A stretch of 52,443 nucleotides of DNA, taken from assembly GCA_013115145.1 (NCBI GenBank), contig JAAPAO010000209.1, forward strand, positions 1 through 52,443, in the 5' to 3' direction. This document shows positions 4,221-39,423 of the stretch, piece after piece. Source of the DNA: Perkinsus chesapeaki (lineage: Eukaryota; Perkinsozoa; Perkinsida; Perkinsidae). The notes beneath the pieces are model-generated. The model saw only the letters and a list, made by a program, of their open reading frames with translations, ran no database searches and had not been told where the DNA came from. The position numbers were made by a program, and so were the translations under genes. The first letter of the stretch is position 1, and every line of letters starts with the position of its first letter.

Positions 4221-4275
4221 TATAAGTGTATAAGGGTGGTCATTCCCTTATATTAACTGTGAAGCTCTACACACC

Positions 4276-8905: not shown

Positions 8906-8960
8906 GGTGTGTAGAGCTTCACAGTTAATATAAGGGAATGACCACCCTTATACACTTATA

Positions 8961-15686: not shown

Positions 15687-17266
15687 ATGCTATCGGCTAT
15701 CATTCTGTCCGCGATGTTCAGCTGCCAGTTGGCTTTGGTAGCACTCTTCTCCACTCCGCTTTTCCACATTCTCACGCAGGCTCGACTACTCTTGGATCCC
15801 CCCAATCTCGCCACGGAAGCTCTGTTCGCCAGAGTCGGCATGGCTAGCGACAAGTGGCTCGTGGAGGCGGCGTGCCGAGGGCCTAGAAGCCGCTTTGTGC
15901 GGTTACTGAAGCGCGACACGAACGATCTGACAGCCGCGGAGCGCCTCACTTTATTCTGCAGCTTCGTGAAGACAGCGCCAGCGCCTGAGGACAGCATGGT
16001 CAGAACTGTGTGCAATATTGGCGGCAAAAAACAGACGACGAAACAATCGGTCACCTTCTTCTTCTCCGACCACCGAGCAGCGATGACGTTCGCTAATGTG
16101 TGGGGCAACTACCGTAACTTCCGCACGCCGAAGGCGCTGTCTGCGGACGTGCCCACCGACATTGCTCAGAGGCAGGAGCTGGAGACCTGGGAGGAACTTT
16201 TGGAAAAGGCCAGAATTAAGGCGATGGATGCTGATGATGAAGTAAGTGATTTGTTGGAACGAATCGGTTTGAGAAAATCCGCTCTCATATGTGCGTCCTG
16301 ACGATCAAGGGACCTGCTCCGCCTTGGCGAAGATGTTCGGCTGCCAAAAATTTCCGCCCAAATTCGGCGGTCACTTACCGCGATCGATGCCTTGCTGCTC
16401 GCGTCTGCCGCCTTTCCCTTCTTCATTACTGATTGTTGCCTGTACTGTAGGTAAATCTGGGCACACCGGTGAAGTTCGTGACAATTGGCGACTCTGAAGA
16501 CAAGTTCGTGCTGACCAGAGCTTATCGTTTAGAGGATGCGAGGATAGCTCGAGTTGTGGAGCATCGGCCTTGGCTGTGGGACATAAAGGAGGACTATGCC
16601 TGTGGTGACGTGGTCGAGGAGGGCGGCACAGTAACGGCGATGTGCATCCCAAAGGGGGGGACAGATGAGAACACAGTGAAGCTCACGTTCCATTTTAACG
16701 ATTTGCAAGATGCTTCGAAGTTCAAGCGGAGATGGGGAGCCCCGCTCCGAAGTGAGCTAAAAGAGGGAGAGTCCGCTGCACCCGTGGACGGGCATCCGCT
16801 CTTTGTTCTGCCTGGGCTGCGTGCTGACGACTTGGAGGCGGTAAGCGTTGAATCTGGTGTCAGTTTTGCTTACTGCAGTTTGACTAGGATGGGGATGACC
16901 GTGGTGAAAGTACTCTTGAAGACGGGCGGGAGGGTAGTGCAGTAGTGCCGTCCTCTCCACACGTGCCCGCGGCGGAGCATCAGGCAAGACCTGATCAAAT
17001 GTGTCGACGAGAGATGGTTTGGACAGGTTGACGCGGTCCCTGAAGACACCATTGAGAATCAGCCAGTGGCGGACTACCCCACGCCAGACGGAGTATATGA
17101 AGCCTAGCCGCCCCTTTCCTGTGACATATCCTACTTTCAGGAGACACAGCTAGATGATGAGCTACCGAGCTGGTTGTTCCAAGAGGGCCTTTCACTACCA
17201 TCGCCTCGCCGGCCAACAGACCAAGATCGGCTGTATGAAGATCGCTGGTTCCCTTCAATCCGTTAG
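15687..17266 (+). CDS. Secreted protein with two WG modules and an acidic tail (array gene 1)
   Basis: Six exons splice in frame: 15687-15737, 15780-16241, 16451-16840, 16888-16983, 17027-17092 and 17141-17266; 396 residues. Exon 1 encodes a signal peptide (MLSAIILSAMFSCQLAL). The mature protein starts with LDPPNLATEALFARV. Module 1 contains LFCSF, VCNIG and ends AAMTFANVWGNY. Module 2 starts VKFVTIG and contains YACGD, AMCIP and ends DASKFKRRWGAPL. A short Asp/Glu-rich tail follows. Array gene 2 opens with the same arrangement, so the two are paralogues. The fourth intron starts GCAAGA, a GC-AG intron. The second intron is unusually long (209 nt) against 42 nt at the equivalent place in gene 2. 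No known family is recognised. Secretion to the extracellular space or a secretory organelle is inferred from the signal peptide. Confidence 0.75.
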
Positions 17267-17649
17267 CGTCCTCAGTCAATATTTGACTAAGACAGTTCGA
17301 GCCAGTGGAATGCAACATCATCCTCCTTCTGTAATCGTGCACTCGTACGGGACTTCCTGTCCCAGTAGGTCAGTTATCACTTAACCCAGCAACGCTCTCG
17401 ATTATGTCATGCCCCTATTGTTGTTGTAGTCACAGTTGTGTGCTGTGGAAGTTGTTCGCTAAAGTGCACGAATGCTAGGTTGTGTTGGTCAATGTGAAGT
17501 TGGCAGGCAGGCCCTCCGGCGTCTCTAAGGCTCGGCATCCCACGAGCTGTCGCTCGTAGCCATACTGCACCTGGTGCACACTGTCTCCCGGAACCCATAC
17601 GTGATCGTCTGTTTGTAGTTGTTTTGTCTGGTTCTGTCATTACATTAAG
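17267..17649. other. Intergenic spacer between array genes 1 and 2
   Basis: About 380 bp with no supported exon. It must contain the 3' end signals of gene 1 and the promoter of gene 2. No TATA-like or other element stood out. Confidence 0.5.
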
Positions 17650-20600
17650 ATGTTGATGTCACCGGGCCTTCGGGCCCTCCTACTTATCGCCGCATCGCTG
17701 GCGAGAGGGGTGAGAGATACGTCACAAAAGCGGAACGGGGATGCTTTCTTTAGATACAGGCGAAATTAGATCCGCCGAATTTAGCGGCGAAGGCGCTCTA
17801 CGCGCACATCGGGGACGATCCGGAGAAGTGGGAAGTCCTGACGGCCTTCAAGCGTGGAGGAAGTCGGGCAATGAGAGTGAAGACCAGAACCAACTTCACT
17901 GATAAGACGTTCCAGCCTTACTATTGTAGCGTGGCTCAGAGGGCACCGGCGGAGGGCTCCAATGTGGCCACGACGCTCTGCAACAAGCCTGGTGGGAAAC
18001 CGGGAGATAGACGACCGGTTCACTTCCACTTTCCGACGCACGAGGATGCTGTGGAGTTCGCGAAGGTTTGGGGCAACCTGAATCGATATAAGACACCGGT
18101 GGAGCTGTCCAAAGAGATACCTGATGAGGAGCAGATTCATGAGGATTGGGATGAAGTTCTTAATCGAACTCGAGCAAACATTGTTGAGACGGACGGCATG
18201 GTAAGCTCTTTCGAAAGCCTTTGACTGATCAGTCTTGCTTAGGTGAATTACGCTTGGCCACTGAAGTTCGTGAGAATCGGCTCCGATGCCGATAAGTTCG
18301 TAGCGACCCACGCATATCGGCACGAGGGAGCCCGTGTGAGGCTGGTGAAGCTGGCTGAGCAGAAGCCGTACCTGTGGGACATACAGGAGACCTTCTACTG
18401 TGACGAGCTGCCGCCGGACCCCTGGGGGAAATTCGTTGAGACCAAATGCGCACGACCGAACAACCTGGAAAAGAAATATCTGTTTGTGTTCAACTTTGAC
18501 ACGCAGGAGGATGCTGCCTATTTCGCCAAGCACTGGGGAGCACCTTTCCTTGACACTAAGAAGGAAGAAGATTCTGAGGTCAACGTGGCCGACGGAGCGA
18601 AGCAGGCACCTGCGCGTGAGCTGGAATCCGGTTACAAGGCGAATTACGGTGGTCTTGCTGGAGATGGGGGACATGCCGACGGTGAAGAATCTGCAAGGAG
18701 CTCTACTGTTTATGACATGAAGAGCAATGTTGGTGAAGCGGGCGAGTGGGCTGGCAGTGAAGTGAAGCCACCGGTGTTCGGGGAGATGGGAGGGGCTGTG
18801 GCCAGCGGCGAGAGCCAAGCTGATGGAGAGAAGTCTGGCTCGACCCCTGAGGACACCGAACTGGGCAAGGTAGTTGTAGAAATTTTGACGAGGTTTACTT
18901 GCTAGTTTTTCAGGAGGAATCAGGACACACAGTGCCGGAGGAGTGGGAAGCTGACCAGGTAAGATAGCTGCCGACAAGGGAGAAAGGCACGAGAGCCCTA
19001 TTAAATGTTGCTCGAGATGAGGCGCGCGAATTAATCTCTGAGCAATTCAGTTTGCTCCCGGCTGAACACAGATTGCGAAGGTACCACCGCCTACTATCGA
19101 CGAGCATGATGATGCTGCTGCTGGCAACGAGGAGGGCAGTATCGATAATGAAAAGGAACTTGTGGTGAGCATAGAAGACTTCTGCCATTGCTCGTCGCAC
19201 CAGCATCAACATTGATAACCGTGTGCTTTGGACTAGTCAAACATTCGAACATCGTTTTTTCGGGAATGTCATGGTCCAGGACTCTGTCGTGTTTTAGGTG
19301 GAGCCCTCCGATTCGGATCAGCCAGTAGAGAGATGGAAGAAAAGCCAGGTAGGCTACTCGTACGGTACTAGATACGTGAAGGACACTAGTAGAGCCTGTA
19401 AAATAGTTTGCTTTAAGCCTACGGCATTTATCTGTGACGTAGAGACGAATCCTTATCAGTGCAGCGTTGGAAGGGACCTAGGGAGGATTCCATATCGAAC
19501 TGCTCAGGTCGATGCTCCTCATCGACCGGCTGATCTCGACGACTCGGAGATTCTGGAGGAGCAACAGTCGAAGGAGGCGGACGGTGCATTGCCGCCACAC
19601 GAGTCGCCTACGGAGAGCGGTGTGGATGATACGGAAGAGGAAGGCGTCGGAGTTGATGGCGGCGTTGAGGTAGGCTCATCTAGAGCCCTTTGTGGTTGAA
19701 CTCCGCGATCAGGAGAACGTTGAGTCTCCTTCCACGGCTGATCATTGGGAAGCCAGCAAAGTGAGCATGGAGTCTACGGGCCGCCGTTGTCGGTAATCAT
19801 TTCGTTTCAGGTATCCGACCCTTTGATTCCTAAGAGTGACGCGTCGGAGCAAGGAGATGAGGACGACGAGGGTCTGCCCCCACCAGTCCTACCGTTCGCC
19901 TCGGACGAGGCTGATGGTTCCACGGAGAGTGCAAGTAGCGACGCTGAGCAGGTACGGCAGAGCTGTAGCGACCAAGCGTGCTTTATCCTTGTCCATCAGT
20001 CTCCCGAGTCTTCCACCACTGGGTCGTCATCGGCACCCGCTTGGTCGGCGGGGAGTGTAGATAGTCCGACGATCCCAGATGTAAGTGAGAGGGGGGGTTA
20101 AGAAGAAAATGCCCGCCTGGAATCAGGCCGTAGATCCACAGTATGCAGAGTACAGCACTCCTGAGCCTGCTGGATACGGAGACATGGAGGACACCACGGT
20201 AGGACGTGACTGCAGAAGAGGCTCTTCTATGGCCTTTATTCCTAGGATCTCAACCACGACAAATTCCCGACCTTTGATGAGCAAAGCGACGGCGCTAGCC
20301 AATTTGGCAAGGAGCATACAGCCGCGCAGTCGGGTTATGAAGACGCAACTGCGAAGGATTCAGCGGTGAGCTCAGACTTGTATGGTTCAGTTCTAAACTG
20401 GTAGAGATGTACCATCGCAATCTCCGCATCTCAAATTGGTGTTGAATGCCTTCGGTGAAATTTGGTATGATTAATTATGACAAAGCCCGTTCGCTCCTCA
20501 GGACCCATTCGACGAGATGGAACCGATTTCTACGGAGCAGGAATCTTCAAAACATTACTCCAAGTCGACATCATCATCACCCAGCACCGCCACCTACGGC

Positions 20601-23600
20601 AATCCAGCTGCCGTCCCCGACGTGAGTTCCTCAACGGGTGTCTGACTGTTAAATCCCGGCCTTCCAGGTTCCACTGCCACCAACCTTTGCTTCGACCGAG
20701 ATGGAACAGGACCCTTCTCAGTTAGAGACGGACGAGGAGGAGGGCATGACGCAAGATGCCGATGACGAGGAGGAGGAGGAGGGCATGACGCAAGATGCTG
20801 ATGACGAGGAGGAGGAGGGCATGACGCAAGATGCTGATGACGGGGAGGAGGAGGGCATGACGCAAGATGCTGATGACGAGGAGGAGGGTGCTGTTGACGC
20901 TTTCAAAGACAAGGTAGCTTTAAATCCTCTTTACTTTTTATTATCTCCATCTTGTTCGGTTTCGGCTCCAAAGCCAGATGATACGTAGAGCGCTGAGCGT
21001 GATTATGGAGGACTAGAAATTCGCTCCCGTTGTGAAATTTCCGGCCGGTCATTGTTCACCAATTTAGCTGATGGGTTAGTAACGTCGCAGTTCTGCATCG
21101 CTTAGGAGCCTGAATCAATCATTCCGGTGGCGGAGCCTACAGTGGAAAGGAGGCTACAAGGCACCGAAATGGAGGACGTTGCTGAGGAGCCTACTGCTAA
21201 CGAAGAGACGTCGGAGAGCCAAGACGGTGCAGCCGAGAAAGAGGAGGAGGAGAACGATGTCCCTGAGGGTCTGCCAGAATTCGGAACTAGCAGCGATGTC
21301 GCCGATGACCAAGTAGCCGGGACTCGGTGGTCGTGGTTCCGCGGTGATAAAGATGCTGTTTCAGAGCGATCAGATCACAAGGCTTTCTTCCGGCGTTGAC
21401 GAGGACTTTTCGCCTGGGGACGAGGTGGGGGCCTTCTGCGATGCAGACTTGTGGAATTTGACAATCATTAGGAGCAGGCTGTCGAGGACGGACCGGAGCT
21501 GAAGCAGTTCTCTGACGATAACACTGACAACAGCGCCGCGGAAGTAAGGAAGTTGACAGCACCTCACAGTGGCATTCCCCGCCAACCCCACTAACAGGAC
21601 TTTAGCGCCGGGCTCGATTAGGGGGAAACATCGTTGGCTCTATACCAGGTTTTTTTCAGAGCATCCTTGACACTGAAGCTAACAGTAAAGATCAACTTGA
21701 AGCGGACTCGGATGCAGTTGATTGGGATAACGAAAAGGACGCAGAGGAGATTCTGGACACTGGTGGAGCCTCCGATGATCAGGAGGTAGCAGCGCCACTT
21801 CGCCATCTCTGCTGCACTGTCCCAATCCTAGGGTGGCCAGCTGCAACGACTTGCAACTTCGGTTGAAGCTGATACGTCATTCGTGCCAACACAGCAGGTG
21901 AGGAGGAGGCGAGTTCGTGTCGAACAGAGAACTTGGTCGTTGGCTGGTTAGGCTGGGTTCGGCACTTGTCGAGAATTCCGCCCGAAGCACAGCTACAGGC
22001 ACGGCAAGATCACCGCTTTCGATACACAAGGAAGGAGATTCAAAGTACCTCGCGGTCTCCTGCGCAGCCTCCAGAGTGGGGACTGTGTTACCATTTTAGG
22101 TTCGTCGGCGTTACAATGGAGAACCAGAGACTGCGTCCTGCGAGGCGGTGGCCGTTCGACCGAAATACCGCGAGGATCTGAACGACTGGCTCATCCCGGT
22201 CCAATGCCGCTTCATTGGCATTAGTGGTGTCGAGACTGTCGAGGGGAAAATAAGATGCGACTCAGAGTACGAGGCGAGGACTCTGGCTAAGGAATGGGGA
22301 GGCTTTGACGTAAGTCCGGAAGGTCCGGGGTTCGAATCCCACGGCCTGCAACTCAGGATCCTTCTTGGGTGCCCGGCCCGCCTCAGATGCGCGATTTGAG
22401 CAGCATGAGGCTGCCGGATGGATCCGACAGTGGCAGTGGCTACTGGTATTCATACGCCGGCGGTTCATGGGGAAACCATGATGAGGTGAGGATGTAAAGT
22501 GAACGACGGCTGATGTTGTGACGTTCAGGCACAGAACCTCGCGACACCTCTAAGCCTAGGAATAGCGGAGGTAGGCCGGGAAGGTTTTGATGATACGAGC
22601 TGGTTGATGAAGGTTTTGAGGGATTGTATATTTCGATAGAACTATGTNNNNNNNNNNNNNNNNNNNNNNNNNNNNNNNNNNNNNNNNNNNNNNNNNNNNN
22701 NNNNNNNNNNNNNNNNNNNNNNNNNNNNNNNNNNNNNNNNGATATGTGTTGATAGAAATGATATGTGTTGATAGAAATGATATGTGTTGATAGAAATGAT
22801 ATGTGTTGATAGAAATGATATGTGTTGATAGAAATGATATGTGTTGATAGAAATGATATGTGTTGATAGAAATGATATGTGTTGATAGAAATGCGTCATC
22901 ACTGCCAGTGATTCACTGGTGAATAATGCCATCATTCAGTCGTGTAATAAGCTCGTTGCCGACTTCTCCAAAGGCCAAGCGGATGACATCGTAGACTTTG
23001 ACATGAAGACCAGAAAGCTTACGGTAAGGCTCGTCAGTGCGAGGATCGAGCAGCTAGATGGTTGTAGATCATCCCAACTAATATGATGCTTCCATTGAAG
23101 CTCCAGTGCAAACCAGTAGATGTCCCTCCAGAAGGGAAGGGGGCGACTTGGCTGGTCCGCGTAGATTGCAAAGATGCAGGAGGTAAGCCCCAGATTTCAT
23201 CGGTCTACCGAATTAAAGCCTTTGTATTCAGGTCACGGACGGTCTGGAGGAGGAGTTGTTATCTGTGGTAATCGCGCTGATGCTGAGCAACTGTCGAGCG
23301 TTTGGGGTGGCTTCCACGTAGGAGACATCTTCGCAGGGCTCTTCCAGGAACTGCGTGTCAGGGCGGTGGCGAGAGTCGGTCAGAAGGTGGCGTGCGAGGG
23401 GGGAGCTCCTCGCATTCGTCGGGGTGGTTCCAGCATGTGGTGATGTATCGAAAGGAGGAAGTGAGAACGACGACGACAACTCCGACTACCACGACCACAA
23501 CGACCACTACGCAGCCTCCGAGCAGATCGTGGTGGTACCAGTTCAAGCACTTTGAATGGGCTGGCTTCCAGACGGTAGCGGCTCCCGAATGCCACTGGCT

Positions 23601-26600
23601 GCTGCTGAACCTCTGCATCTTAGGCTGTGACGACTACTACTACAACCACAACCACGACGACCACTGCTCCGACGACAACGACAACTACCGAGAGAGTGAG
23701 TTGGTGTGTTACTCATTACCACTATCGGTTTCCTACAGTCCTTCTTTGGGAGCTGCCAAGAGGTGATGCCGATGTCGAACTCGAAGCTGATGCCACAGCA
23801 AATCGCTCACTTCGCATTCGAGAACCGTGGCCTTTCGGTGAGTCCGTCGCTGTTGTCTAGCACAATTGCCCGTCTCGCTTCCAATTGGCGCAGGAGAGCT
23901 CTTAAGTTTGAAGCACTTTTCACGTACACACGCCCTTATATTACAACATTGATGTCTTTCAGGTCTTACCGTGGGGAACTAAGGAAGGCCGAGGTCACAT
24001 GATGAGCTGTGATCCGGTCCGTGCGCCTCCTACAAAGCAGAAGGATGGTCGCTACAGAGTGTCAGCCAGCTGCTACTCAGCGGCATCGGCCTCTTCAAGA
24101 GCTCATGCTGAGAGCGAAGAGGAGGGCATCGTTTGTGGCTCGTATTGGGATGCACAACTCCTTGCTGTTATGTGGGGGGGTTATGAAGCTGTAAGTGATG
24201 GGAAATGTTGCTCAGAGCTATCAGTCCACTGCATAGCAGCTCATCGGCTTTTAATCTTGAGAATTCTGCGATGGATGCCGCGTTCTGAAATATAGTGTCG
24301 AGGAAACCACGCGCTCCTACACGTGGCTCTGTAAGGCAGCGTCGAGTCTTCTTCCTCTTAGCAAGCGCCTCCAACAGAACCGCCGCCAACTACGACAACT
24401 ACAACGACCAAGGCTCCTCGAGTCCACAAGCAGCAGTCTGCCTGGTGGATGGTGCACACTTCTGGCGGGTACACGTGGAACCACCCGCCCACGGTGAGGC
24501 TCTGATAAGTCAGAGGGCTGGTCAGCGGCATACTGCATCCTTTCAGCCGAAACCGACCACAACAACTACCACTACCACCACAACGACTACTACTCGCAAG
24601 CCCAGGGTGAGCGAAACCGAGCTGTCTGTCAGCGTTTGGACGGTGTGCATCAGACGAGGTACCGCACTTGCGAAGCCATGCGTCCGGATTGGGCCAAAGG
24701 TGACCAGCTTGACGAACTTGTTGACATCGTACCGCAAGGGCGGCAACTCCAGGTGGGATATCCTGCCTTGTAAGATAGCTGATGCCCGTTCGACAGGTGC
24801 GCCCGTACCTCGCTAAAGGGCTGCTCTCACTTACATGCGACCAAGTGACGGAGTTACCCACTGAAGATGAAGACGATCAATGGTCGGTGCCGGTGAAGTG
24901 TGGAGACTTGGAAGGTGCAGCGCGCAGATGGCTGCTGCCCCCTGAAAGTTTCCGTATCGATGTCGATAGGTCAAGGATTCATCAGCCAGGGTAGAATACG
25001 GTGTGCCTCCTATTACGACGCTCAGCTTCTGGTTATGCAGTGGGGTGGATACACACCGGTGAGCCTCACTACGTAGCCTCTGCGACGTGATAGTCTTTCG
25101 CCAGCCTACTACGACCACAACGACGACGACGACCACTACCACGACGACCACCACAACTACTACAACGGCAGCCAGAGTTCACCAGCGCTCTTGGGGCTAC
25201 TACTTCTCAGGATACGGCTCTCACTCTCAGGCAGTTGTAGGGCTCTTAATGTTGGTGTTATAATGCTACTCGACTGTGTTAGGCGCCACAGACCACTACG
25301 ACCACCACAACAACGACGACTACAACCACGGCAAGAGCTCAGCAGCAGCAGCAGTCGTGGTATAAATACTTCTCATCAGGATACTGGTCCCACTCTCAGC
25401 AATCTGTAGGCCAACTCTAGGGCGTGCATCGGTGTTATCCTTATGGTAGGCTCCTCAAACCACGACCACCACTACTACAACGACAACCACAACGACCACT
25501 GCTGCTCCGACAAAGGTATCTGCTAAACAAAGGTTCACTGAGTTGACGGGTTTGCTTCAGGGCCGCTTCGGTAGCTGTGTAACGCTGCAGCAGGGGCGAG
25601 AAGTGGCGATGAGTAGATCGTACGAATCTTTAGTGGATGCGCTACCATCAGCTCGAGAGCTTATGGTAAATCCTGATAGGAGTGGTACGCAGCTTATATC
25701 TCTACGCCAGGTTATGCCGAGAGGCGCTCATTATGCCCGCTCGATGTTCTGTGATAGAGTACGGCGCAAACCGACGTCATGGCAAGGACAATGGTACGTT
25801 CCCGTGAACTGCCAAGATGAGAAGCGTAACGCCTCAGCTGATTGGACCTACACCATTTTGTTGTGCGCAGATCCTGAGAACTCGGGCGACAGCAACGTCG
25901 TGTGTGGTTCGTACTGGGAGGCTGAAATGTTTGCCATTCTGTGGGGTGGCTACAAGCCGGTGAGATGAAGAGCAATTTCCGGCCAAAAACGATGGTCTTG
26001 TAGGGTCGTTCAAAATTCACTTGACAAGATAAATTCCTCGCCGCGTTTCGTACTCTTGCTTCTTCGAGGGGATGAATAACCCTCTGGCGACCGCGTCAGA
26101 AATTTCAGAGGCTTCGCTCGAGATTTCCATGATCCTTTCTATGCTAAGTTGTGCGCACATGAGGGGGAAATTTTCCAAAACGCATGTAGTTGCTTTGCCT
26201 CAGGAATTGCCACCAACGACAACAACTACCACAACCACGACCACCGCTCCTACTACCACAACAACCCAGGCTCCGACCAATAACGTGGGATGGTGGGGAG
26301 GATTCAGGCAATACCTCTGGAAGGTAGGCGAGCAATGGCTCCTTCCGTGTGATGCAAGTGATTCATTTCAGGCCTCAAGCTGGTCCGAGTCCACTTCAAA
26401 TGAGAAGGAAGCTCCGAAACCATTGCCGACTGCTCCGTCGGTCACTGCTAGACAGCAGGTGAGCGGCCAGTATCAGGCGCCGGGGGGCGATCTACTCTGG
26501 CAGACCCGTTTTCCGAGCTGCACAGCTGCCCGGAGAGAATTCGCGCCGCAGGGTGAAATGGACGAGGTCGTTGAGCTCTCGAGCGACGAAAGGAAGACTG

Positions 26601-28515
26601 TTACTGTAAGCAGGTTCTTCAGAGGATCTGAGTTGCTATCATTTTTTCATCAGCTGACACCCTATGGCTTCCCGGGCTCTGTTCAATTGTCTTGTGATGG
26701 CGTCGATGCCGGACCGAGCGAGTGGGAGAAGAGCGGCAAATGGCAGGTTAAGACGAACTGCCAAGATGAGAAGGGTGCGGGGCTTCCATGGAGCTCAAGG
26801 GGATCAGTAGCCATCGTAGGTTTGGATACCCCCACTGCCTACCGAATAGTCTGCGGCACCTACTGGGATGCACAATTCCTCTCAATCTTATGGGGAGGGT
26901 ATCAACCGGTGAGCACAGCGATCTGCTCACGGCAGCTGGGAAAGACTTTTGCGTTCACGTGCAGGCTGAAATGCCAGCAATGCCTCCCACGCCGCCAGTC
27001 GCTGACACACCGTCGGCCCAGCAGGGGTCTTCTTCCAGCCATGGCGGAATGTTCCACTTCAGTTGGAGTGGCTTCTCTTCGGTAAACAGAGGTTGACGAC
27101 CTCCTATCATATCGATGCTCGCTCAGGAATCTCAGACCACTACAACAACGACGACCACACCGCCCCCGCCAGCTCCAACAGCCGCGCCTGTGCCGAGTAG
27201 CTCCAGCGGTGGTTGGTTCCATTTCGCTCAATGGGGTGCCTCGGTAGGCGTCTGCCTAGTATAGCAGTACCGTGGTGATTTAATTTGCTTCTCTCAGTCC
27301 TCAAGCTCAAGCAGCGGTGGAGATCATCACATTATGACTGCACCGCCGGACGAGGCTATGGTAAGATACAATAACCAGCCGGCGTTCCTATGGGCATGTC
27401 CTCCATAGGTCCCCTTCGGCAGCTGTTCACAGCTGCAGCGGGAGACCAGCCCCGGTGTGCCTGACCAGCTCCTCGACGTTAAGACTGCTGGAAGGCTGCT
27501 TACAGTACGATCGAGGATGCTACGCGGCGTCAATAACTTTCTTTCAGATTCGAGCCGCCCATGAACAGTCGCAGCTCCTAAGGCGGTTGACGTGCGACGC
27601 TGTGAACTCGAGTCCGGTACAGAACAGAGGAGGAGATGGCACATGGAGAGTCCGTGTTGGCTGCCACGAGAACTTCGGTGAGAGCTGCGTGTATGCGTTG
27701 ATCGGGATGTACGTTCGATTTCAAGGTGCATCAAATGTTATCAAAGGAAGCATCGTTTGCAGCAGCTTCTGGGACGCCCAAATGCTGTCCGTCTTGTGGG
27801 GTGGTTTCAGCCCCAGACCAGTAAGGCATCCGCAACCGAGCGCTCTCTCCCATCGCTATGGCTTCAGGTACTCCCTCCAGCCAATCTCCCAGTGCAAGGT
27901 GAGTAGCTCTTATCTGCGATATTAATGTACTTCTCTGACCAGGTGCTTCTGGTCTCCTCCCTCACTACCTCAATATCCGAATCACCAGGCTGGGCTCGGC
28001 GGTGGTGAATCGTATCGGCGTCGTAGAGCCTAGCGAAGAAGAGCGTGTGAACTGGCATGAGATGCATCTTCTCTATGACAGTCTGAGGTGAGGAGGTTGT
28101 CCGGCTTCTGCCACCCAAGAGAAAGATTAGGGCGCTCCTTATGCTTGCTGGACAGGTCGGGAGAGAAGAACATCTGGGGAGAGACGCTTGATGGCAAGAA
28201 AATTAACATCATGTTCGACGAGCCGGGGATGGCAGAGCTTCTTATGAGGCAGCTCTCTGGACGAGTCCGCGAGGTAAGATGGCTTGAAGAGAGCCGCGGC
28301 ACCTACGAGAGCGTTTCAGGTTACCACCGATATCACCCGCTTCGCCAAGTCACTTGGTACAAGGGCTGCCTCCAATGGCCGACGGTCACCGGTGCCCACT
28401 CAGAGCCACGGAGAAAGGCGGAATGGTAAGGAAGACCGCTCATTTTTCCTACGGCTTACGCTGTACTGTGTCAGGCTGGAGCGTGAAAAGGGTCACGAAG
28501 ATAAGTAGAAAGTGA
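17650..28515 (+). CDS. Giant modular secreted protein with acidic, cysteine-module and mucin-like parts (array gene 2)
   Basis: Starts with a signal-peptide exon (17650-17709, MLMSPGLRALLLIAASLARG). Next come exons 17760-18200 and 18243-18869, paralogous to gene 1: LDPPNLAAKALYAHI, a module ending DAVEFAKVWGN, then a module ending DAAYFAKHWGAPF. From 18.9 to 21.9 kb about fifteen small exons, nearly all phase 0, encode an Asp/Glu-rich region. From 22.1 to 27.8 kb seven cysteine modules follow. The clearest read GSYWDAQLLAVMWGGY, GSYWEAEMFAILWGGY and GTYWDAQFLSILWGGY at their ends. They are separated by Thr-rich exons. The C-terminus (27.9-28.5 kb) has a last module-like part (KKINIMFDEPGMAELL) and a basic tail ending SVKRVTKISRK. 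One gap (22648-22740) lies in an intron. No stop or new signal peptide was found inside, so I treat it as one gene, but a boundary near the gap cannot be excluded. No known family was recognised. Confidence 0.65.
20743..20886 (+). repeat. Acidic in-frame tandem repeat, four copies
   Basis: Four consecutive units encode GMTQDADD followed by 3-5 acidic residues, so units are 33-39 bp long and stay in frame. The length change is confined to the GAG run. The unit differs from the rest of the acidic region and probably expanded by slippage or unequal exchange. Confidence 0.9.
22310..22356 (+). other. Gene 2 intron with a tRNA B-box-like motif
   Basis: A 47-nt GT-AG intron after the exon ending KEWGGFD. 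Removing it joins open frames (next exon PSWVPGPPQMRDL). It contains GGTTCGAATCC at 22329-22339, a perfect match to the pol III B-box consensus GGTTCGANTCC. The flanks do not fold into a complete tRNA. Confidence 0.6.
22648..22740. other. Assembly gap (93 N)
   Basis: Run of N inside an intron of array gene 2, directly followed by a 19-nt minisatellite. The gap probably reflects collapse of that repeat. Hidden exons cannot be excluded. Confidence 0.98.
22741..22892. repeat. 19-nt minisatellite, eight identical copies
   Basis: Unit GATATGTGTTGATAGAAAT repeated eight times without change, adjoining the assembly gap, so the true copy number is unknown. It is intronic in gene 2. The perfect identity implies recent expansion. 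There are no unique spacers, so it is not a CRISPR. Confidence 0.95.
23460..27240 (+). other. Mucin-like region of gene 2: Thr-rich tracts, aromatic motifs and cysteine modules in alternation
   Basis: Thr runs of about 5-18 residues lie at 23467-23520, 23627-23695, 24384-24410, 24546-24600, 25105-25172, 25284-25335, 25449-25513, 26213-26280 and 27129-27155. Thr codons are mixed (ACA, ACC, ACG, ACT), which suggests selection for Thr and not simple triplet slippage. Many tracts end in a short aromatic motif: SWWYQFKHFEWAGF, SWGYYFSGYGSHSQ, SWYKYFSSGYWSHSQ, GWWGGFRQYLW, MFHFSWSGF, GWFHFAQWG. Between tracts are the cysteine modules, each preceded by an exon of the FGSCxxLQ type. Thr-rich tracts in secreted proteins are typical sites of O-glycosylation. 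Confidence 0.8.
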
Positions 28516-28988
28516 TTGCTGTCAAAATCGTCCAGTATATTGCAATGCCAGCGGTTGCAAGTAGCCTGGCCAGTTGTCAGTTGTTCGGATGTATTCCTGG
28601 TGTCCCATGTTGTACGGTCATATCTAGATGTGCTTACATACACTGGCATTGGGTTGGTTAAGGGAACCGAAGTATACAGCGGTTTCTATGCTCTCGTTCG
28701 GGCAGCGCATTCTGGCAAAAACACTGTACTTTATCTCTATCTCCACGAGGTCCGAATTCCCGTCGGGAAATGTCCAAGTCGAGTTCGCAATATACCCGCA
28801 CCGGGTTCATTGCGATGACCGACTTTAAGCCGATACGAGAACCCGGAAAACTCAATAAGCCCGAAAACGGAGATATATATTACCACTCAGACGAAGGTTA
28901 ATCGTTGAGGCTCCAGGGATGATTTTTCTTCGTACAGGCTTACGCTATATGATGACCTCGTTATTAAGCTTTGTTTGTTGTCTATATA
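28516..28988. other. Intergenic spacer between array genes 2 and 3
   Basis: About 470 bp. A short plus-strand frame (28516-28818) crosses it but lacks consistent splicing and is probably not coding. No regulatory motif was identified. Confidence 0.45.
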
Positions 28989-31900
28989 ATGCACTGTTGG
29001 CTATTAGCCATCGCCCTTCCCATAGTAGGAGGTAGCGATGATGTTTACGAGGCGGTGAGCTAACAATCCTCAATGCCAAAATCGCTGTTATTTTTCGGTT
29101 CAGAAACCAATGGAGGAGAAGCTTTCCAATGCTATGTGGGGCGCTCTGCTGGGGCCGGACGGGCATCTCAATGTAGGAATATTCATGCTGCTAGGTTATC
29201 GTCATTGCCAGGCTCTTGAACCTACCAATCTCGACAACGGAGAAGCGTCCGCTCCGACCAGCAGCCCTCTGAGCCCGGAGGAGATCGCTGAGGAGCTAGC
29301 ACTTCCTGCAGACCAGACTGATGAGGCCATGCAGCAGACGACTACAAGCACACCGCAGCCTGCTGTACCAGAGACGACATCAACGACTGCGGCCCCTACT
29401 AGTGGAGATAAGACCGTGCCTCAGGTGAGCGGTGCCCCAGCTATGAGATTCAATGATTGTCCTCATGGCAGGACCTTGAAGCCTTCGTGACATCTCTCGG
29501 CCCTGCGGAGCTCCGCGTGAAAGTTGTCCTCTTTACCGCTAGGGTGGGCAGCACAGAATTTGTAGAATTCTTTCTCACTGGGATTCTCAGGACTGCAAGT
29601 CGTGCGAGGCTCTCCAGGATATTCGAGATGAGGCTGACAGGTTGTTTTCAGACGAGTAAGGATCGATCATGCCTCGTAGGCAACTTCTGGACTCTTCTAG
29701 GTCGGCGGACTTTATGCCAGTTTCATGGGAGTCACTGTACTGCGAAGATCACTCTCTCAACCAGCCAGGTGGGCAAGCCCATTCCAACTTCTCCGGTATA
29801 TTCCTCTGCTAACGCGAAGTCGTCACGTCTTCTTGGTTTCCCCATCCTTTACCTATTCGGAAGGGTGCCGGAGTCCAGGATGAAATCATCAAACACGCGG
29901 CTTCAGGTCCCGACAAAGCATTTTGCGATGCCGCCAACGTAACCACCTTACCGGAGCTCCGCCTCTTCGTCGTTGATGAGGAAAACCAACACGTTACGCT
30001 GGCTGCGAAGTAGCTAATGAAGCGGCCATCAGCCGCCACTGTTTCGGATCAGGTTCGACACTACCAAGCCAACTGCAGCGCAGCTCCGAGACTTTGTACG
30101 TCAACGAGCGGTGAGCCCGGGGATCAGCTTGACACTGAGGAGGAGCGACTCCTTGGCTAGGCGATTCCCGATAAGATCGAAACGTGCAAGAAGATAGTTC
30201 ACCCTGTGGATGGCAAGCAGGAGCTGGTGATGACGCAAGCACAGCAGGGATGGATTTGGGTAGGACCTGCCGAGGTGATGCGATGTGGCTAGTGCTGTAC
30301 TCAGTACCGTGGTGAAGGGAGCGAAGAGAAAGATCTGATAGCCGAGAAATGCAACGGAGGCGGCGCGGTAGAGCTAGATGGAGACCCGCCCAGTTTGCTG
30401 GTCACATGCAAGGCCGGGGAGGTCACCGTGACCTGTGATAGCAAGGAAGATGCGGACAGAATGCAGCAGCTACTCAACGATGCGGTAGGTTTATGAGGCT
30501 GTGAATCCGGGCAGTTGTCATTTATAGGCACCAATGAGCACGTCGGCGGCTTCAACAACGGAGTCTATGCTACCGACCAGCACCACTGGCGCGCCTGTTG
30601 TTGAAGAGAGCCCGGATGCTCAAGCCGACGATACCACGGAGCGGGAGGGAGAGCCGGCTGCTGATGATGAGGATGAGATGGCCGAAACGCCGGATAGCAG
30701 CTCAGAGGCGGAGGCGTCGACGAACGGACAGAAGGAAGAGGGTTCGGTAGAGAAGGAGGCTTCGGAAGGAGATAGCAGCGAGGCTACCAGTGACGAGCAT
30801 GCTGATCCGCCCGAGGAGACAGAGGATTCGGCTACAGCACAGGATGAATCGACGGCAACTCCGGAGAGTGAGACAGAGAGCCTCGGGAGCGTCGATGATA
30901 GCACGGGAGAAGATATGTCCGTGCTGGAAGGACCAATCACGACGGAGAGCGCAGAGGGTGCCGATGGGGAGATTCCTGAGGAGGGACGGACAGAGAGCCG
31001 GGGAGAGTTTCCCACTGTGGGCGAGGATGGTGTTGATGATGAGATATCCGAGCCGTCGAATAATACAGACGAAGATATCCAAGAGAAAAACGATCAGACT
31101 ACACCCGACGCTCAGGAGACTGAAGTGAGCGGAAGCGAAGAGAAAACCGATGATAGCAATCTCGAAAATACATTAGGAGTGGTGTCGCCACATGAGCCAG
31201 CAGAGAGTGATGAGAAGAGTACGAATGAAGATATGACCGCGCCCGACATTGAAGAAGCTGATACACCGTCTGCGGAAGAGATGCAGTCAGCCGAGGATGC
31301 AATGACTGGCCTTAAAGAGCTTGAAAGTTCATTCTTACCACCAGATCTTCCTACGGATCTTTCACAACCCAATGAAGCCATTCAAGACGATTCTCGTGAC
31401 AATACTGCTCTCGGAGAGGCAGCTGGATCGGATGGAGAGAAGTCCGCTGTTACTGTGCTTGATGAGGGCGGCGTGCCCGTGCCACCGGCTGACGATTTCG
31501 TTTTAACGAATGCAGAAGAGCCTAGCGAAACGGTGCCAGAGCCTATTACCGATGCTGTCATACCGGGAGAGAGACCCGTCGGCTATCCAGATGCTCCGCA
31601 AAGCAGCGAAGAACCTGACGATGTTTCCGGGGGAGCTCCATCTGAGAATAATTTGGTAGAGGATGCGCCTCGTCTTCAGACTGAGGAGATAGACTGGCGG
31701 CCAGACCTCCCGGACGTGCCAGATTTTTTGGATCACCGTACTGAGCACGAAGAGTTACCGATCGTGAGATATACAGTTTGCTCTTTCATTCGTGTTAAAG
31801 TGATGCGTATCAGGTTACCGAAGACGAAGATGAAGCTGCCGATGATGATGATGATCAGCCTTTGAACCCATCGGACAATCCACTGAGCGAGCTGGGGGCC

Positions 31901-33057
31901 ACCGACGAACCAACGAGACTTCATTCCGGACTCGATCCTGTAGAGGATGTGAAGAATGCGACAACTGATGATTCCGGAGATTCTGAGGACAAAGATGATG
32001 ATGATGAAGGTGATGGTGATGGTAAGACTAGCTGATGATGTGAAGTTAGCCGATGAGTTCACAGTAGGTGGCGATGATGAGGAGATTTCAGTGGACGACT
32101 CTGATGAAGATGAAAACGACGACGAGATGCCAGTTCTTAACTTTGATAAGGAGGATGAGGAGATCTCCAAACAGAGCACTGAGGAGGATGATAAAGACGT
32201 GGCACCGGCATCTGATATTGACGAGAATGGCGACGATGATGAGATCGATGGAGGTGCCGATAATGGTGACGAGGACAGAGGCGCACATTCGTCAAACGAA
32301 GAGAATGCTAAAAGGCTCCAAGGAGCCCGGACCCTTCGAGGAGTGATACCCACCGACGATCCCACTCCACCAGGATCGCAATTTTCATCGTTCACGTTCA
32401 CGTCTCACACATGGTCATCAAACGACCCTTGGCATGGTGAGCTGAAATGCTAACAATCAAGCGGGGTAATGGATACCTGATCAGGCACACTACCACCGAT
32501 CCTACCCGGTGAAGTCGGTGGCGCGCCGAAGATGATATTCTCAAATCCTTCCTCGGATGAACGTAACCACTCCACGGAGGTAAGCCGGACATGCGAATAG
32601 CTACCCACCGCTATAGCGGTTTTTACTGCATCATTGAAATCTGCACTATAGAAGCGAACATGCTTGGTATACACCACGCTCTTCACATACAGCCTGTCTG
32701 AGCGGTATCTCTCTAGGAGCACCTGAGAGTAGTCTCTCTGTCTAGCAGACGGGTGCACTGTTCTGAGGTTCCCCGCAGAAATGCAATCTAAAACGGTCTG
32801 AGTCCCCGAGCTGCTTGCTCTCAGGTTAAGATCTTGGCCGATACCATGCGCATAGTCCTCCAGCACGTGGGGGCATCAATCGTCGGAGAGGACATCTCGG
32901 GGAACAGTGTCGTCATTTACTTCCCCACGGATGATGCCGCACATGAGGGTTTCGGCCTTCTGAGCTCTCGCATCCGCAACGTAGGTTCTCGTAAAATGAA
33001 GCTTCTACGGCACTTGGTTGTTTTCCACTTCAGACGGAATTCTATCGAGATGGATAA
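28989..33057 (+). CDS. Secreted, extremely acidic protein with cysteine modules (array gene 3)
   Basis: Exon 1 (28989-29054) encodes a signal peptide (MHCWLLAIALPIVGGSD). Exon 2 is 29104-29172. An exon with Thr/Pro stretches follows (to 29424). Module-like exons then follow: LGPAELRVKVVLFTA, FCDAANVTTLPELRLFVVD and CKAGEVTVTCDSKEDADRM. One very long exon (about 30530-31760) encodes more than 400 residues dominated by Glu, Asp, Ser and Thr, with no cysteine. The C-terminal part has a last module (NSVVIYFPTDDAAHEGF) that resembles the end of gene 2, then a 24-nt exon to the TAA at 33055-33057. A few junctions between 29.5 and 29.9 kb and 32.6 and 32.8 kb could not be fixed. The protein is likely disordered and Ca2+- or cation-binding by charge, which is inference. 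Confidence 0.6.
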
Positions 33058-33267
33058 CAAGTCTTACTATCTCAAGAAGTACACCATTGCGGAAGCCTTT
33101 TTATCTTTTATTAACTTTTACTAACTGGCTTGAGCTTCATCTTTCCATCAGTTGCTTTACCACTGTCTGCTTACATGTTGATGTCGCGCGGATGAATGTA
33201 TCCACCATAGCTGTTCAGTTCTCAATGCCTTGCACGGCGGGATTTCAGCTGTTGGTGTTGTTAAGCT

Positions 33268-36200
33268 ATGCTCCGCTCGTATACCCCATTCCTTATCTTC
33301 ATTGCTGCTATAACAAGAGGGGAGGTAAGAGTGTGGCAAGATGCTGGCTGCTCTAGGCTTCTTTCCTAGTATCTATTATAGACAGTCTCTGAGTGCCGGG
33401 TGTGAGTTTACTTATCTGCATCTGTAGGGATACTGTGATCTAATTAATACTGTATAATATATTATAAGTACGTACGTTAAGGAGGATTATAGAATGTGCC
33501 AGGCTTCATCAGGGGCTCTCATATAGCATTAAAGAAACGTGGAAACGACCACCGGCCTCCCGCAGCTTAGCAGACGGCTGAGGAGCATGCCTTTCTTTTC
33601 AGACTAGAAGTCACCCCGATGGTGATCTTGGCCCAGCTGTTGCAGACATCCCAGGCATGCCGGAGATACCTAATCTCAATTTTGGACAGGATATCAATTT
33701 GCCGGAGGCCAAGCCGATGCCTCCTGTTGAAGCCGGGCCACAGCCGTCAGGACAATCTCTCCCTACATTCACTGACGCTGCTGCGCCAGCGGTTAGCCGT
33801 CTGTCTAGCGGTGTGGAGGAAGATGAGGTATGTCCAACGAGCCAAACAAAACTCCAACCGCCGCCGCATCTGTGATCTTCACGTCATTCCCAGGCGCAAA
33901 GCACCGGTCCCTCTGCACCACGAGAAGAGTTCCCAGTGATGGATACGAACCCCACAGCTTCTACCGACCACTCGGTAAGCTCCAAGCCGCATATCACACT
34001 AATGCTTCACCTAATTATTAGGTCCCTTCTGAAGCTGAAAAGCAACAGTCGTACGACGCCATGGCACGTAATGAAGTTGACGAGTTGGCCCCAGAGCCCC
34101 CGACTGACGAGGAGGAGATGATGAGCTACTCGGTTGGAGAACCTGCACACGCATCTTCTGATGTTGCTCAAGAGCTGGTGAGCGAAGATCATCTTGAGTT
34201 CCGTTTTCGCTCGTAGCTGCCCGCGTTTCATTGCTAATGCGGCATTAGCAATGCCGTACATTGCATTGTTGCAATTGTTGCCGTAGCATTAACAATTGAT
34301 GTCATTAATAATGCCTATACTTTTAGGCTCCCGAGCAGGAATTTGAAACACCCGAGGTGGACCCTGCCCAGGTGAGTTACCGGGGCACGTCGCGATCTGT
34401 CTGATACATCTTCTAAGACTTTTAAGCGGCTTTGGCGCAGTAGGTAGCGCGTAGGTCTCATAATCCTAAGGTCGCGAGTTCGATCCTCGCAGGCCGCATT
34501 TATCCCAACGTGCTTTCTACTTCAGAAGCACGTTGCTAACCCCATTCCGTGCACGGACGAAACACCTGTCTCGGATGATGAACAAGCTGGCCAGGTTGCG
34601 GAGAGCTCTTCTAATGACGAGGAGGGCACCGTCGCTGACGAGACCGTCAACCCTGTAGTTCCCGACGACCCGGATGCAGAGGACGAATCCGATCATATGG
34701 AGAGTGAAGACTCGACCGAAGATGACGATGCACTGATGGATAGCGATGACGTTGAGGGAAAGGACAATGGGAATGAAAGCTCAGCTAGCAGTGCTAACGA
34801 TGAAAACGAGAGTTCGCCTGACGATGAAAGCGCGGCTGATAGCAATGAGGAGACAACGGCCGATAACGACGATGAGAGCGCGGCTGATAGCAATGAGGAG
34901 ACAACGGCCGATAACGACGATGAGAGCGCGGTTGCACACGACGGAGAAAGCTCTACTGAAGACGAGGAGGAAAGGCCCACTGATGAAGGCGAAGAGACTG
35001 AGGAAGACAAAACCGAAGCTGGGTCGCTGCCTAAGGTGAGTTGGGCTGGTTAACAGTGTCAATAAATCAATAATGTTAGGCTGACCAAAAGGCTGTACTC
35101 TCTGTTTGCCCATTCGTATCGATTGATCACGGTGAGCTTGAGCTCGCCAGCAAGATCGAGCCGGCTTTCAAAAGAATCGAGGTAGGCATAGCGAACATAC
35201 TACGGTTAGCATAGCGTTCCCTTCCTAGGTGGAAAACCAAACCTTGCTGTTCTGCGGGAATGCGCACGCGAACTCGGTGGCCGTGTCTGGCTACAGTGCC
35301 GTAGCGATGATGTGTTCCAAGGACGCCGAGTCGGATCAAGAACTTAAGGTTGCTGTGCTCTGCAGAGAAAAAGAGTTCGCCGAGTCACTCATTGCTGGAT
35401 GGAACTGGGACACTGATGAGGTACCGAAATCTACACCTGCATGCTGCCGATGAGGGTGTTCTGTCCCAGGTGAGCTCAGACGGTGAGAGCGACGCAGCTG
35501 ATGCATCTGAAGAAGATGACGAGGAAGCAATCGAGAAGGCTGAAGACGACTCGGCCGACGAGGATGGTGATGAGGCAACAGGAGAAGCACAACCCCAAGA
35601 TAACGATGATGAGCAGCCAACAAGCGACGGTTCAGACACCGTGCAAGAAAATAGCGCGGCAGAACCCCAGATGACAACTGTGAGTGCTACTCCAGGCGGC
35701 CGAGGTAAAGTGCAATGTTTCAGGCTGAAATCCTTGAACACTGCCCGGCAGTGTCCTTTGAGGGGCATCCCTATTCGAAGATATCCACTTTCTGGGACGG
35801 CGGCGTCATGGTGAGATTATTCTTGCTTTCAACGCGTCCAGAGAAGTTAATGCAGATCCCTCACGTCGCCAGTGAAGGAGATAAGCAAGCCTCTGACAAG
35901 ATCGAGTGCGCGGGAGCCAAGTCTCGCCACGAATCTGGCGCCCGCTACCCCGAGGTTTCGGCGCTCTGCCGGGAGCCCGGCTCGGAGGGTGCATTCGATA
36001 CCTGGGTCAGCCTCAAATGCTTCAACAAGGAGGCGGCCAACACCGTTGCGCGCAAGTGGAACACCTACTCGGTAATTCCAATTTATACTCAGTTGAAGTA
36101 ACAACCATGTTGTGTGTCAGGACGCCAGGATTGCTGCTGGTTGCAACACGGTTAACTTCGGAGATCGTAAAGAAACCATCAGCGAGCTGAACAGTGATCG

Positions 36201-37512
36201 CCGGGAGATCGAGGTGAGCCATTGTTCTGGATTCTCTGTCAACGCAGAGTAATCTTCAGTTCGTCAACGCCAGCAGCGCAGCCCTACGCTGCGACGCTGC
36301 CACTTCTCTTCCGACTGATGCCGGAGCCCTCCCCATCAAATGCGATGGAGTCAGCGTTGAGATTCTGTGCTCCTCGCGCAGTGCCGTATCCTTCCTCGCT
36401 GCCGAGTGGGACGCTCCTGTCTCCCACCCGAGGCCCTCGCCACCTCCGGACGTGCCCCAAGTAGGACATTCCAGAAGGCTGAATTAGTTACCCAGCTTTG
36501 TCGCAGGATGAGCCGGAGCTACCGCCCGCTCCTCCCTCATCGGAGCGCCGTGAGAGCGATGTCAGAGCTCATCGTGATTCACCGTTGGTGTACCGCGGTT
36601 GGCCACCACCAACTCCTAAGCCCAGCAAACAGTTCGATGCTGTCACGCCTAGGGTGGGGAATCTTCGCGATCGGATTTCTGACGGTGTTGCTTCAGGCTG
36701 AGCATGAAAGGTGCCCTCAAGCATCTGTTCTGGGCGCTGGAATTGTCGAAGTGAAGAACATCGACAAGGGAGCGATTACAGTGAGTATCTTCACGCACGT
36801 CGCTAACGGCAAACTTCGAGCGGCACCGAAATCTGGAATCACTTTACAGTCATCGCTTATCACCGGGTGCTAACTCGGATTCTTATCAGGTCGAAGTTCC
36901 CGACACCTCCTACTTCCAAAGCGTTGGTCCCCAATTGGTTACCTACGAGTGCACAGGCCTCAACTTCCCACCTCGGAGATTGGCAGCTCGCTACACTGTC
37001 CGTCAGCTCTGCCGTGACCCAGCAGTGCCTACTGCTCCCAACTACAGTCTCAGAGTATCTCTTATCTGTGATGAGAAGGGAGATGTTGAGGAGGCTGCCG
37101 ACATGTGGGGCGTCCCTGCTCCCATCAATGACGTGAGTCTCGCCTGCATTCTCCCATCGAAAGACTTTTCATCGTAAACCGCTTTCCACAGTGTTGATAG
37201 AACTAGTGAAAGTGATTTGCTTTTCAGAACTCCACGAGCATCACTCTCCCCGCTGTAGACGCTCCGGAAGGGATGTTCGTCGAGGTCGTGGACCACAACA
37301 CTGGTCATAAGCAGTACAAGCAGCTTGTCGTTAACCCTACTGAGGCGGAGAAGTCCCAGTTGCAGCAGCTCAAGCTTAATTTAAGGGCCTTGAAGCAAGG
37401 AGACAAGAGCATCATTGGCGTGGATACCGAGAACGACAAAGTCGTCATCCATACCGGAGAGAACCAAGTCGCCCAGCACATACTAGACGCTCTAAAGCGT
37501 AAGTGCCAGTAA
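33268..37512 (+). CDS. Secreted protein: Pro-rich start, acidic middle, four cysteine modules, C-terminal NPT domain (array gene 4)
   Basis: Exon 1 (33268-33324) encodes a signal peptide (MLRSYTPFLIFIAAITRG). Exon 2 is 33603-33827, Pro-rich, with IPNLNFGQDINLP, similar to exon 2 of gene 5. Acidic exons follow; one near 34.8-34.9 kb contains a duplicated 48-bp unit (DESAADSNEETTADND). Four modules lie at about 35.07-35.42, 35.72-36.07, 36.12-36.46 and 36.70-37.13 kb. Each starts with a Cys exon (VCPFVSI, HCPAVSF, GCNTVNF, RCPQASV) and ends in a strand-Cys-helix-W pattern (VAVLCREKEF, WVSLKCFNKEAANTVARKW, VEILCSSRSAVSFLAAEW, VSLICDEKGDVEEAADMWG). The last exon encodes the C-terminal domain VVNPTEAEK through KRKCQ. 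An intron at 34372-34525 hosts a tRNA-Met gene. No known family recognised. Confidence 0.7.
34426..34498 (+). tRNA. tRNA-Met(CAU), elongator, inside an intron of array gene 4
   Basis: All arms fold. Acceptor GCGGCTT pairs with AGGCCGC (one G-U). The D arm is GCGC/GCGC. The anticodon loop is CTCATAA with the U31-U39 mismatch that is also found in other eukaryotic elongator Met tRNAs. The T arm is GCGAG-TTCGATC-CTCGC, with discriminator A. Length is 73 nt, without an intron of its own. The host intron (34372-34525) starts GTGAGT and ends TTCAG, on the same strand. The T-run after the gene is only three bases, so the pol III terminator is weak. Confidence 0.95.
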
Positions 37513-37741
37513 CCTGTCCTCGAGCCTGTCAACCTTACCCTTCAGATGACGCCGGTTCACTGCATGTTAGAGCAGCAGCAGCATGAAAGCATTAGTTTAT
37601 GTACTTGTTGTGGTGTACAGCTGTCCCAGTTGTGTGTTGTTCTGTCTGGTCAAGTTGTCGCTGTAGCGGTACGCTGTTGTGTTTCGGCTGATTCTTTGAC
37701 ACCTGTTCCGTAGACCCTTCCATCCGGCCCCTTTACACATT

Positions 37742-39423
37742 ATGATAGCTAAGGCACTCTATTGCATATCTATACTGATGACAGCCATTTCCACAGTAAG
37801 GACAGCTGCGGCGCAGTTAGTATCTTACGAATCCGTTACGTTCCAAACCGCACAAAGCTCCCTTTCACGGACTAGATGATGAGAAAAAAACAGGGCAATC
37901 TTCTCCCCTGCTCTACAGTTTGAGCGACCTCTGACATGCCTTTTCGTTTCCAGGAAAGAAGCTCTGACGACGCCCATTCTGCTGGCGAGGCCACGAAGAG
38001 CTCTTTCTTGCAGAGCTTCCAGTTGCCCGATATAAATTTCGGCGCCCTCCCTGGATTTGATTCCGCTGTCCAGAGCGATGATGCTCAGCCTCACAGGCTT
38101 TCAAGCTCAACGCATGAAGATGTGAGCGTCTCGCTGTGCTGTAAATTCCTCAATTATAATATATCAGGGAGCAGACGAAGACCGATTCCCCGTTATCTCC
38201 GGAGCCGGCCAGGCAGTTGTTGACCATGCGGTGAGCGCACCCTACTGTGATGGTGCATGGAAGCGGCATGTTCTAGGTTCCTAGTCGACCTTATAATAGC
38301 GGTATCGATTACGACGCTCTGGCCGCTAGTGAGATGGACGATGATGATGCTGCCTTGCAGGAGTTGAGGGATAACCAGAAGGAGATCCAAATGGACAGCG
38401 CCGATGAGGATGAAGAAGAGGAGGACCAGGCCGCTGCCTCTCCTCCAGTGACTACAACAAGGAAGCCTGTGGCAACCACTAGTACGATGACGACAAGACA
38501 AACAACATCGACGACGACAACGACAACAACTGCCATCTCGGAGGTTAGGATAAGATATTTCAACATCTATTAGGAGGGGTTCGTTTAGGCTGAAACGACG
38601 ACAGAAGCGCCGGCTGTGGAGTTATCTGAAGAGGATGGCGAAATCACACCAGCTGCTCCTTCAGAGGTAAGAATCTAAAGTAGATCGAGTACTTTTATTT
38701 CTTCGATGTCAGCTCGAGACCGCACCGCCCTCCGCAGAGCAGGTTGGCAATGATAAGGTTACCATTAGGGTGAGGATGGACGTGACCAGACAGCGGGATC
38801 TTACTGTTAATTTTGCAGGAAGAGGAGCACGTCAAAATAACTGGTGAAGACGAGCATCCGGTTACCATTACGAAGGTCGATAGCAGCGCGTTAGGAAACA
38901 GAACTGCGAGCGATGAGCAGAAGAAGCTGGTCGATTTATCCGAGGAAGAGGGCACCGTCGCTCCTTATCAGCACAGTTCTAGAAACGTAAGAACAGTTGC
39001 GACGAAAAGTTAATATGGTTGTGATATCAGAAGACTTCGATTCGGCCTCGAGGAAAGCTATCGATTGCCTCTTCTGCGCCTACTCACCGACTTTCACGGC
39101 AGTCAAGCGAGCTCGCCGAAAAGGAGAGCGCCGTGGTGGTTGTCAAGGACCGCAGATCTGGCAGCGTCACGAACAAGCTGATGATAGTTAATCCTACTGC
39201 AGAGGAGAAAAAACATTTAAAGGAGATTGTTCTCCTCACCCACCCATTGAGCGTCACGACCAACGCTATCCACCTCAAAACGGTCGATGGCGACTCAGTG
39301 GAGATCCGGACCACACAGTCTGGACAATCAAAGCTTGTTCTTGCTGCCTTGATGAGTAAGCAGCTTTCCTCATCCCTCTCACTCGTATGCAATCGGTTGT
39401 TTTTAGGCACCGGTAAGAAGTAG
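37742..39423 (+). CDS. Secreted acidic Thr-rich protein with C-terminal NPT domain (array gene 5)
   Basis: Exon 1 (37742-37795) encodes a signal peptide (MIAKALYCISILMTAIST). Exon 2 (37954-38121) contains LPDINFGALPGF and RLSSSTHED, similar to exon 2 of gene 4. The next exons encode an Asp/Glu-rich part and a Thr-rich tract (about 38448-38537). The C-terminal domain begins near VVVVKDRRSG and contains IVNPTAEEKKHLKEI; a short last exon ends STGKK with TAG at 39421-39423. The C-terminal domain aligns with the end of gene 4 over about 80 residues. There are no cysteine modules, so this gene is a shortened relative of gene 4. One or two short exons around 38700-38820 are uncertain. Confidence 0.7.

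Follow-up and report, generated by a model that had tools for sequence, protein, structure and literature searches.

The 52,443 nucleotides of contig JAAPAO010000209.1 of Perkinsus chesapeaki were analyzed as a single stretch, called here the window, which is C123 among the 884 contigs of the 35.4 Mb assembly used for own-genome searches. The genus Perkinsus consists of parasites of molluscs, here of bivalves, and lies between the dinoflagellates and the apicomplexans. An earlier note on this DNA, made from the letters alone, had proposed that five closely spaced plus-strand genes form an array at positions 15687-39423. Curated spliced models of these genes (G1 to G5) confirmed the array: the gaps between neighbors were about 383, 475, 210, and 229 bp, none of the models contained an internal stop, and all 97 introns were GT-AG. 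The models came from a small purpose-written gene finder that was trained on the array itself, and its output was curated by eye where conserved modules revealed missed exons. Run on the whole window, gene prediction fused all exons of a strand into a single gene; it was replaced by runs on the separate gene segments.

All five genes begin with a hydrophobic first exon, and the modular elements that had been read from the sequence were all present. In G1 (15687-17266, 6 exons, 382 amino acids) the first exon is followed by an LDPPNLA start, two copies of a cysteine/WG module of type A, and a short acidic tail. G2 (17650 to about 28515, 54 exons, 2334 amino acids; the model ends just before the stop codon) shares the LDPPNLA start and continues with two type A modules, an acidic stretch, seven type B modules separated by Thr-rich and aromatic linkers, and a C-terminal domain. 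G3 (28989-33057, 16 exons) encodes a thioredoxin-like stretch, one module, a very acidic region, and a short C-terminal domain, and G4 (33268-37512, 17 exons) an acidic region, four type B modules, and a C-terminal domain. G5 (37742-39423, 9 exons) has no module; an LPDINFG-like second exon, which it has in common with G4, is followed by an acidic and Thr-rich region and a C-terminal domain. Compositions ranged from mucin-like to extremely acidic, as claimed, with extremes of 33 Thr (G2) and 48 Asp plus Glu (G3) per 100 residues. A tRNA-Met gene (34426-34498) was found on the same strand within an intron of G4 (34372-34525).

Treating G2 as one gene depends on a 369-nt intron (22571-22939). 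This putative intron holds 93 N followed by eight copies of a 19-bp tandem repeat (together 22648-22893), and if it is left unspliced the reading frame hits a stop, as might be expected if the boundaries were wrong and there were six genes, with G2 split near position 22600. At each of the four other boundaries a stop is followed by a gap and then by another hydrophobic first exon, and G1 and G4 each match single database proteins, which argues against misplaced boundaries; such an error is considered improbable. The database proteins related to G1 and G4 have the same exon joins across the modules. The NCBI model of G1 itself reads the first intron as coding and stops earlier than the curated model. 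The middle of one type B module of G2 (module f, below) can be read as a 97-nt intron or as a frame break, and it was left as modeled.

The first exons encode 17-22 residues, are hydrophobic, and end in phase 0 in all five genes, in agreement with the separate signal-peptide exon proposed for each. The hydrophobic peak within the first 30 residues was 2.1-2.6 (Kyte-Doolittle, 11 residues) and was higher than any in the rest of the protein in four of the five, the exception being G4 (2.14, and 2.25 further in). Some relatives of G1 and G4 in other Perkinsus species, introduced below, share this feature: both P. olseni relatives of G1 have a hydrophobic beginning followed by an LEPPNLG motif, and two of the four relatives of G4 (FOZ60_013176 and PMAR022379) start like G4, while the records of the other two begin further in. 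These features suggest that the products of all five genes enter the secretory pathway.

Sixteen copies of the module were cut out: two from G1, nine from G2, one from G3, and four from G4. Four are of type A: G1a (15807-16118), G1b (16457-16747), G2a (17781-18086), and G2b (18252-18548). The other twelve, type B, carry cysteines designated C1 to C4: G2c (21952-22309, with an intron inside), G2d (22940-23317), G2e (23739-24190), G2f (24654-25058), G2g (25561-25959), G2h (26504-26908), G2i (27409-27820), G3a (30161-30484), G4a (35080-35420), G4b (35724-36071), G4c (36121-36460), and G4d (36697-37132), all on the plus strand. Eleven of the twelve have all four cysteines; G2f, with its uncertain middle, has no C3 as modeled. 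In all four type A copies both C1 and C4 are missing, and a Phe stands at the C4 position. That C1 and C4 are missing together suggests disulfide pairs C1-C4 in the four-cysteine type and C2-C3 in both types. The distance from C4, or from the Phe that replaces it, to a Trp is 12 residues in 15 of the 16 copies; G3a has four cysteines and no Trp. The C(X)12W signature was present in 11 of the 12 type B modules, whereas none of 2000 shuffled sets had it in more than 5.

Type A and type B copies were also connected by profile comparison. A profile built from the eleven modules G2c-i and G4a-d scored the held-out modules G1a, G1b, G2a, G2b, and G3a above 500, 499, 500, 500, and 500 of 500 shuffles, respectively. 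Smaller training sets were weaker: a type A profile failed on G4c (202 of 500 shuffles at or above its score), G2i (95), and G2e and G3a (67 each), and with a G2 profile 48 shuffles equaled or exceeded the score of G1b. There was no credible Pfam match among the ten sequences scanned, in which G2 was covered by modules c, g, and i only and the acidic parts of G3 to G5 only in part. Sub-threshold names (LigT, CNH, Vint, CDC45, and DUFs) were rejected as noise. When the PDB was searched by sequence, the module gave no row, the C-terminal domain four rows (E 0.31-1), and the thioredoxin-like stretch of G3 one row (E 0.85); these rows were also rejected. No description of the G1-G5 proteins was found in the open-licence literature. 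Within this scope, the proposal of an apparently undescribed family is supported.

The C-terminal domain, named NPT in the earlier note and assigned there to G4 (37228-37512) and G5 (39103-39355), is present in both genes and is not confined to them. It was also found in G2 (27943-28273, two exons), where it scored 30 bits against a G4/G5 profile, and, in a shortened and weaker form, in G3 (32825-33057; 7-11 bits); none of 500 shuffles reached the score in either case. A ferredoxin-like fold (beta-alpha-beta-beta-alpha) is a tentative candidate for this domain. The thioredoxin-like stretch of G3 (29472-30110) contains a CKSC motif followed by TLPEL. It had no Pfam or PDB match, and alignment to three typed thioredoxin sequences gave an hhalign probability of 27% over 30 columns, with none of 100 shuffles reaching the score. 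The resemblance to thioredoxin is a lead rather than a finding.

Introns in the array are predominantly of phase 0. When the gene finder was run with no phase preference, 84 of the 97 introns in the array were phase 0, compared with 13 of 28 in the two flanking genes that the finder yielded from seven segments (Fisher p = 3e-5), a comparison that is not fully independent because the finder was trained on the array. In the curated models the count was 87 of 97. G3 deviated most: 5 of its 15 introns are of another phase, and the thioredoxin-like stretch holds three of these. A phase-0 intron was located at the start of the module or up to 9 residues before it in all 16 copies. All 12 type B modules also contained a phase-0 intron at residues 27-34, and none of the four type A modules had an internal intron. 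The Thr-rich linkers of G2 are separate exons, several of which end in an aromatic motif. The symmetric phase-0 exons, the shared modules, and the module tree described below support the tandem duplication and exon shuffling that had been proposed. Animal extracellular mosaic proteins that arose by exon shuffling also have modules encoded by symmetric exons, mostly of phase 1-1, whereas the arrangement in this array is 0-0.

Protein searches started from G1 and G4 were read down to E 1, and scores were computed only for the best-sharing candidates; within this limit, relatives were found only in Perkinsus, annotated as hypothetical and without domains. G1 corresponds to its own NCBI record (FOL47_003495, a P. 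chesapeaki hypothetical protein), and has two relatives in P. olseni, FOZ63_010395 and FOZ62_000843 (identities 57 and 36%). The relatives of G4 were three P. olseni proteins (FOZ63_016306, FOZ60_013176, and FOZ63_031947) and one from P. marinus (PMAR022379), with 65-71% identity across the modules and the C-terminus. A search with G3 returned no row, not even its own P. chesapeaki record, and no P. chesapeaki record was among the rows for G4; since these records are missing from the results, an absence of further relatives of G3 and G4 says little. In searches of the genome itself, 49 of the 52 matches listed fell in the array and the remaining three had E above 0.05. This excludes close copies elsewhere but not distant ones, because the G2 modules missed the G4 modules and vice versa.

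The modules of G4 are 64-82% identical between species, and in the tree three of them cluster by position across three species (supports 0.98, 0.94, and 0.99). This indicates that these three modules predate the split of P. chesapeaki, P. olseni, and P. marinus. No counterpart of G4a was seen on reading the sequences of the four relatives, which may be mis-annotated. G1a paired with G2a (0.89) and G1b with G2b (0.83), as expected if a block of two modules had been duplicated. Support was low for several of the deeper branches.

A structure model made from the P. marinus counterpart of G4c predicts that the module is a small PH-like barrel of six strands plus a C-terminal helix, on which the Trp lies; the PH domain proper (PF00169) has a barrel of seven strands and a C-terminal helix. 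In a structure search with this model, all 50 of the rows listed were PH-superfold domains, judged by title and aligned range, and covered 76-85 of the 87 residues. When the entire P. marinus protein was modeled, this segment again yielded PH-type rows. The predicted strand arrangement closed by a C-terminal helix is shared with the PH superfold (PH, Ran-binding, EVH1, PTB, and FERM-F3 domains); unlike these, the module is of a putatively secreted type, has cysteines, and lacks a Pfam PH match. PF00169 did not match any of the ten sequences scanned, and its three matches in the genome were all outside the array. It could be that the likeness is a mere common arrangement, the module being a small disulfide domain that is found only in Perkinsus and is unrelated to PH. 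The uniformity of the rows listed, their near-complete coverage of the module, and the agreement of the whole-protein model weigh against this alternative, which is nevertheless given a substantial minority share of the probability. The best match in a viral structure library (E 0.35) was rejected.

PH-like domains with cysteines have been described in the Apicomplexa. In two papers (PMC6291999, PMC7487766), CryPH/PHL proteins are described as having a signal peptide, a PH-like domain, four conserved cysteines, and neighboring paralogs, and as belonging to a large complex in the lumen that also includes CPW-WPC proteins; the PHL group has the signature C(X)9W(X)9C and appears in the LAP interactome beside CPW-WPC proteins (PMC7487766). 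Members of this group (PBANKA_0704900, 0704800, 0417200, and 0902900) were compared with the array by description only. At this level the array appears to resemble them in its secretion-type starts, cysteines, predicted fold type, and neighboring paralogs, with four aligned cysteines in 11 of the 16 modules (G2f lacks one and the four type A copies two). The distance from C2 to C3 is 19 residues in 5 of the 11 four-cysteine modules, as between the two cysteines of the PHL signature. The differences are that CryPH/PHL proteins, as described, have one PH-like domain and C(X)9W(X)9C, whereas the array proteins have up to nine modules each with [C/F](X)12W, are encoded by phase-0 exons, and include spacers rich in acidic residues or Thr as well as an end domain in common. 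RASP2, whose PH-like domain is described as serving to bind lipids at rhoptries (PMC6731292), was rejected as a counterpart since it lacks the cysteine and repeat features.

From these likenesses it could be argued that the array proteins are counterparts of the CryPH/PHL-LAP complex, that is, soluble lumenal proteins that come together within the secretory pathway and are kept in an organelle during one life stage, not a coat or wall. CPW_WPC (PF09717), a domain of apicomplexan crystalloid proteins, had two matches above the family cut-off in the same genome, on contigs C337 and C556, which would be in keeping with such a complex. The PHL signature has a single occurrence among the five proteins, in G2g between its C2 and C3, and is absent from G1, G3, G4, and G5 and from seven database proteins (the G1 record and the relatives of G1 and G4); the array is therefore not filed as PHL. 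No LCCL domain was found, in a search in which the control was also silent, and CryPH is said to lack a multi-domain architecture. Taken together, a counterpart relationship is less likely than not.

The preferred explanation, held tentatively and at slightly less than an even chance, is that the five genes of this Perkinsus cluster code for secreted mosaic proteins built from shared, exon-encoded PH-like modules and a common end domain. The modules would act as disulfide-braced binding units, acidic or O-glycosylated linkers would space them, and the end domain may allow the various products to join in a single coat, wall, or other complex outside the cell. The cluster would have grown by duplication and shuffling of phase-0 exons and by tandem gene duplication, for G4 at least before the three Perkinsus species split. 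The secretion-type starts, cystine-type modules, acidic or Thr-rich spacers, and shared end domain would suit an extracellular coat or wall, or a stored secretory complex. A secreted PH-like module would widen the uses of the PH superfold, and the phase-0 pattern is a clear protist example of exon shuffling. A broader and more doubtful scenario is that a secreted four-cysteine PH-like domain was ancestral to the myzozoans, stayed small as CryPH/PHL in the Apicomplexa, and was multiplied at a single locus in Perkinsus, where shuffling of phase-0 exons turned it into extracellular mosaics with a common assembly domain. If so, animal-style matrix proteins were invented outside the animals, and a fold familiar mainly from cytosolic membrane adaptors was reused outside the cell. 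The module signature, the strict gene structure, and the relatives in three species provide handles for proteomics and localization.

Several other features were observed in the sequence flanking the array. Upstream, a 529-codon open frame on the minus strand (1969-3555) has a CCHC-type zinc knuckle and is gag-like by eye. Between 4200 and 8950, near-identical open reading frames are opposed on opposite strands (e.g. 4234-4509 plus and 8711-8947 minus), constituting an inverted duplication. Downstream, a predicted 21-exon gene on the minus strand (41001-44534) resembles a NOP2-type rRNA methyltransferase, and a plus-strand gene (49656-50108) with a long acidic low-complexity exon is hydrolase-like.
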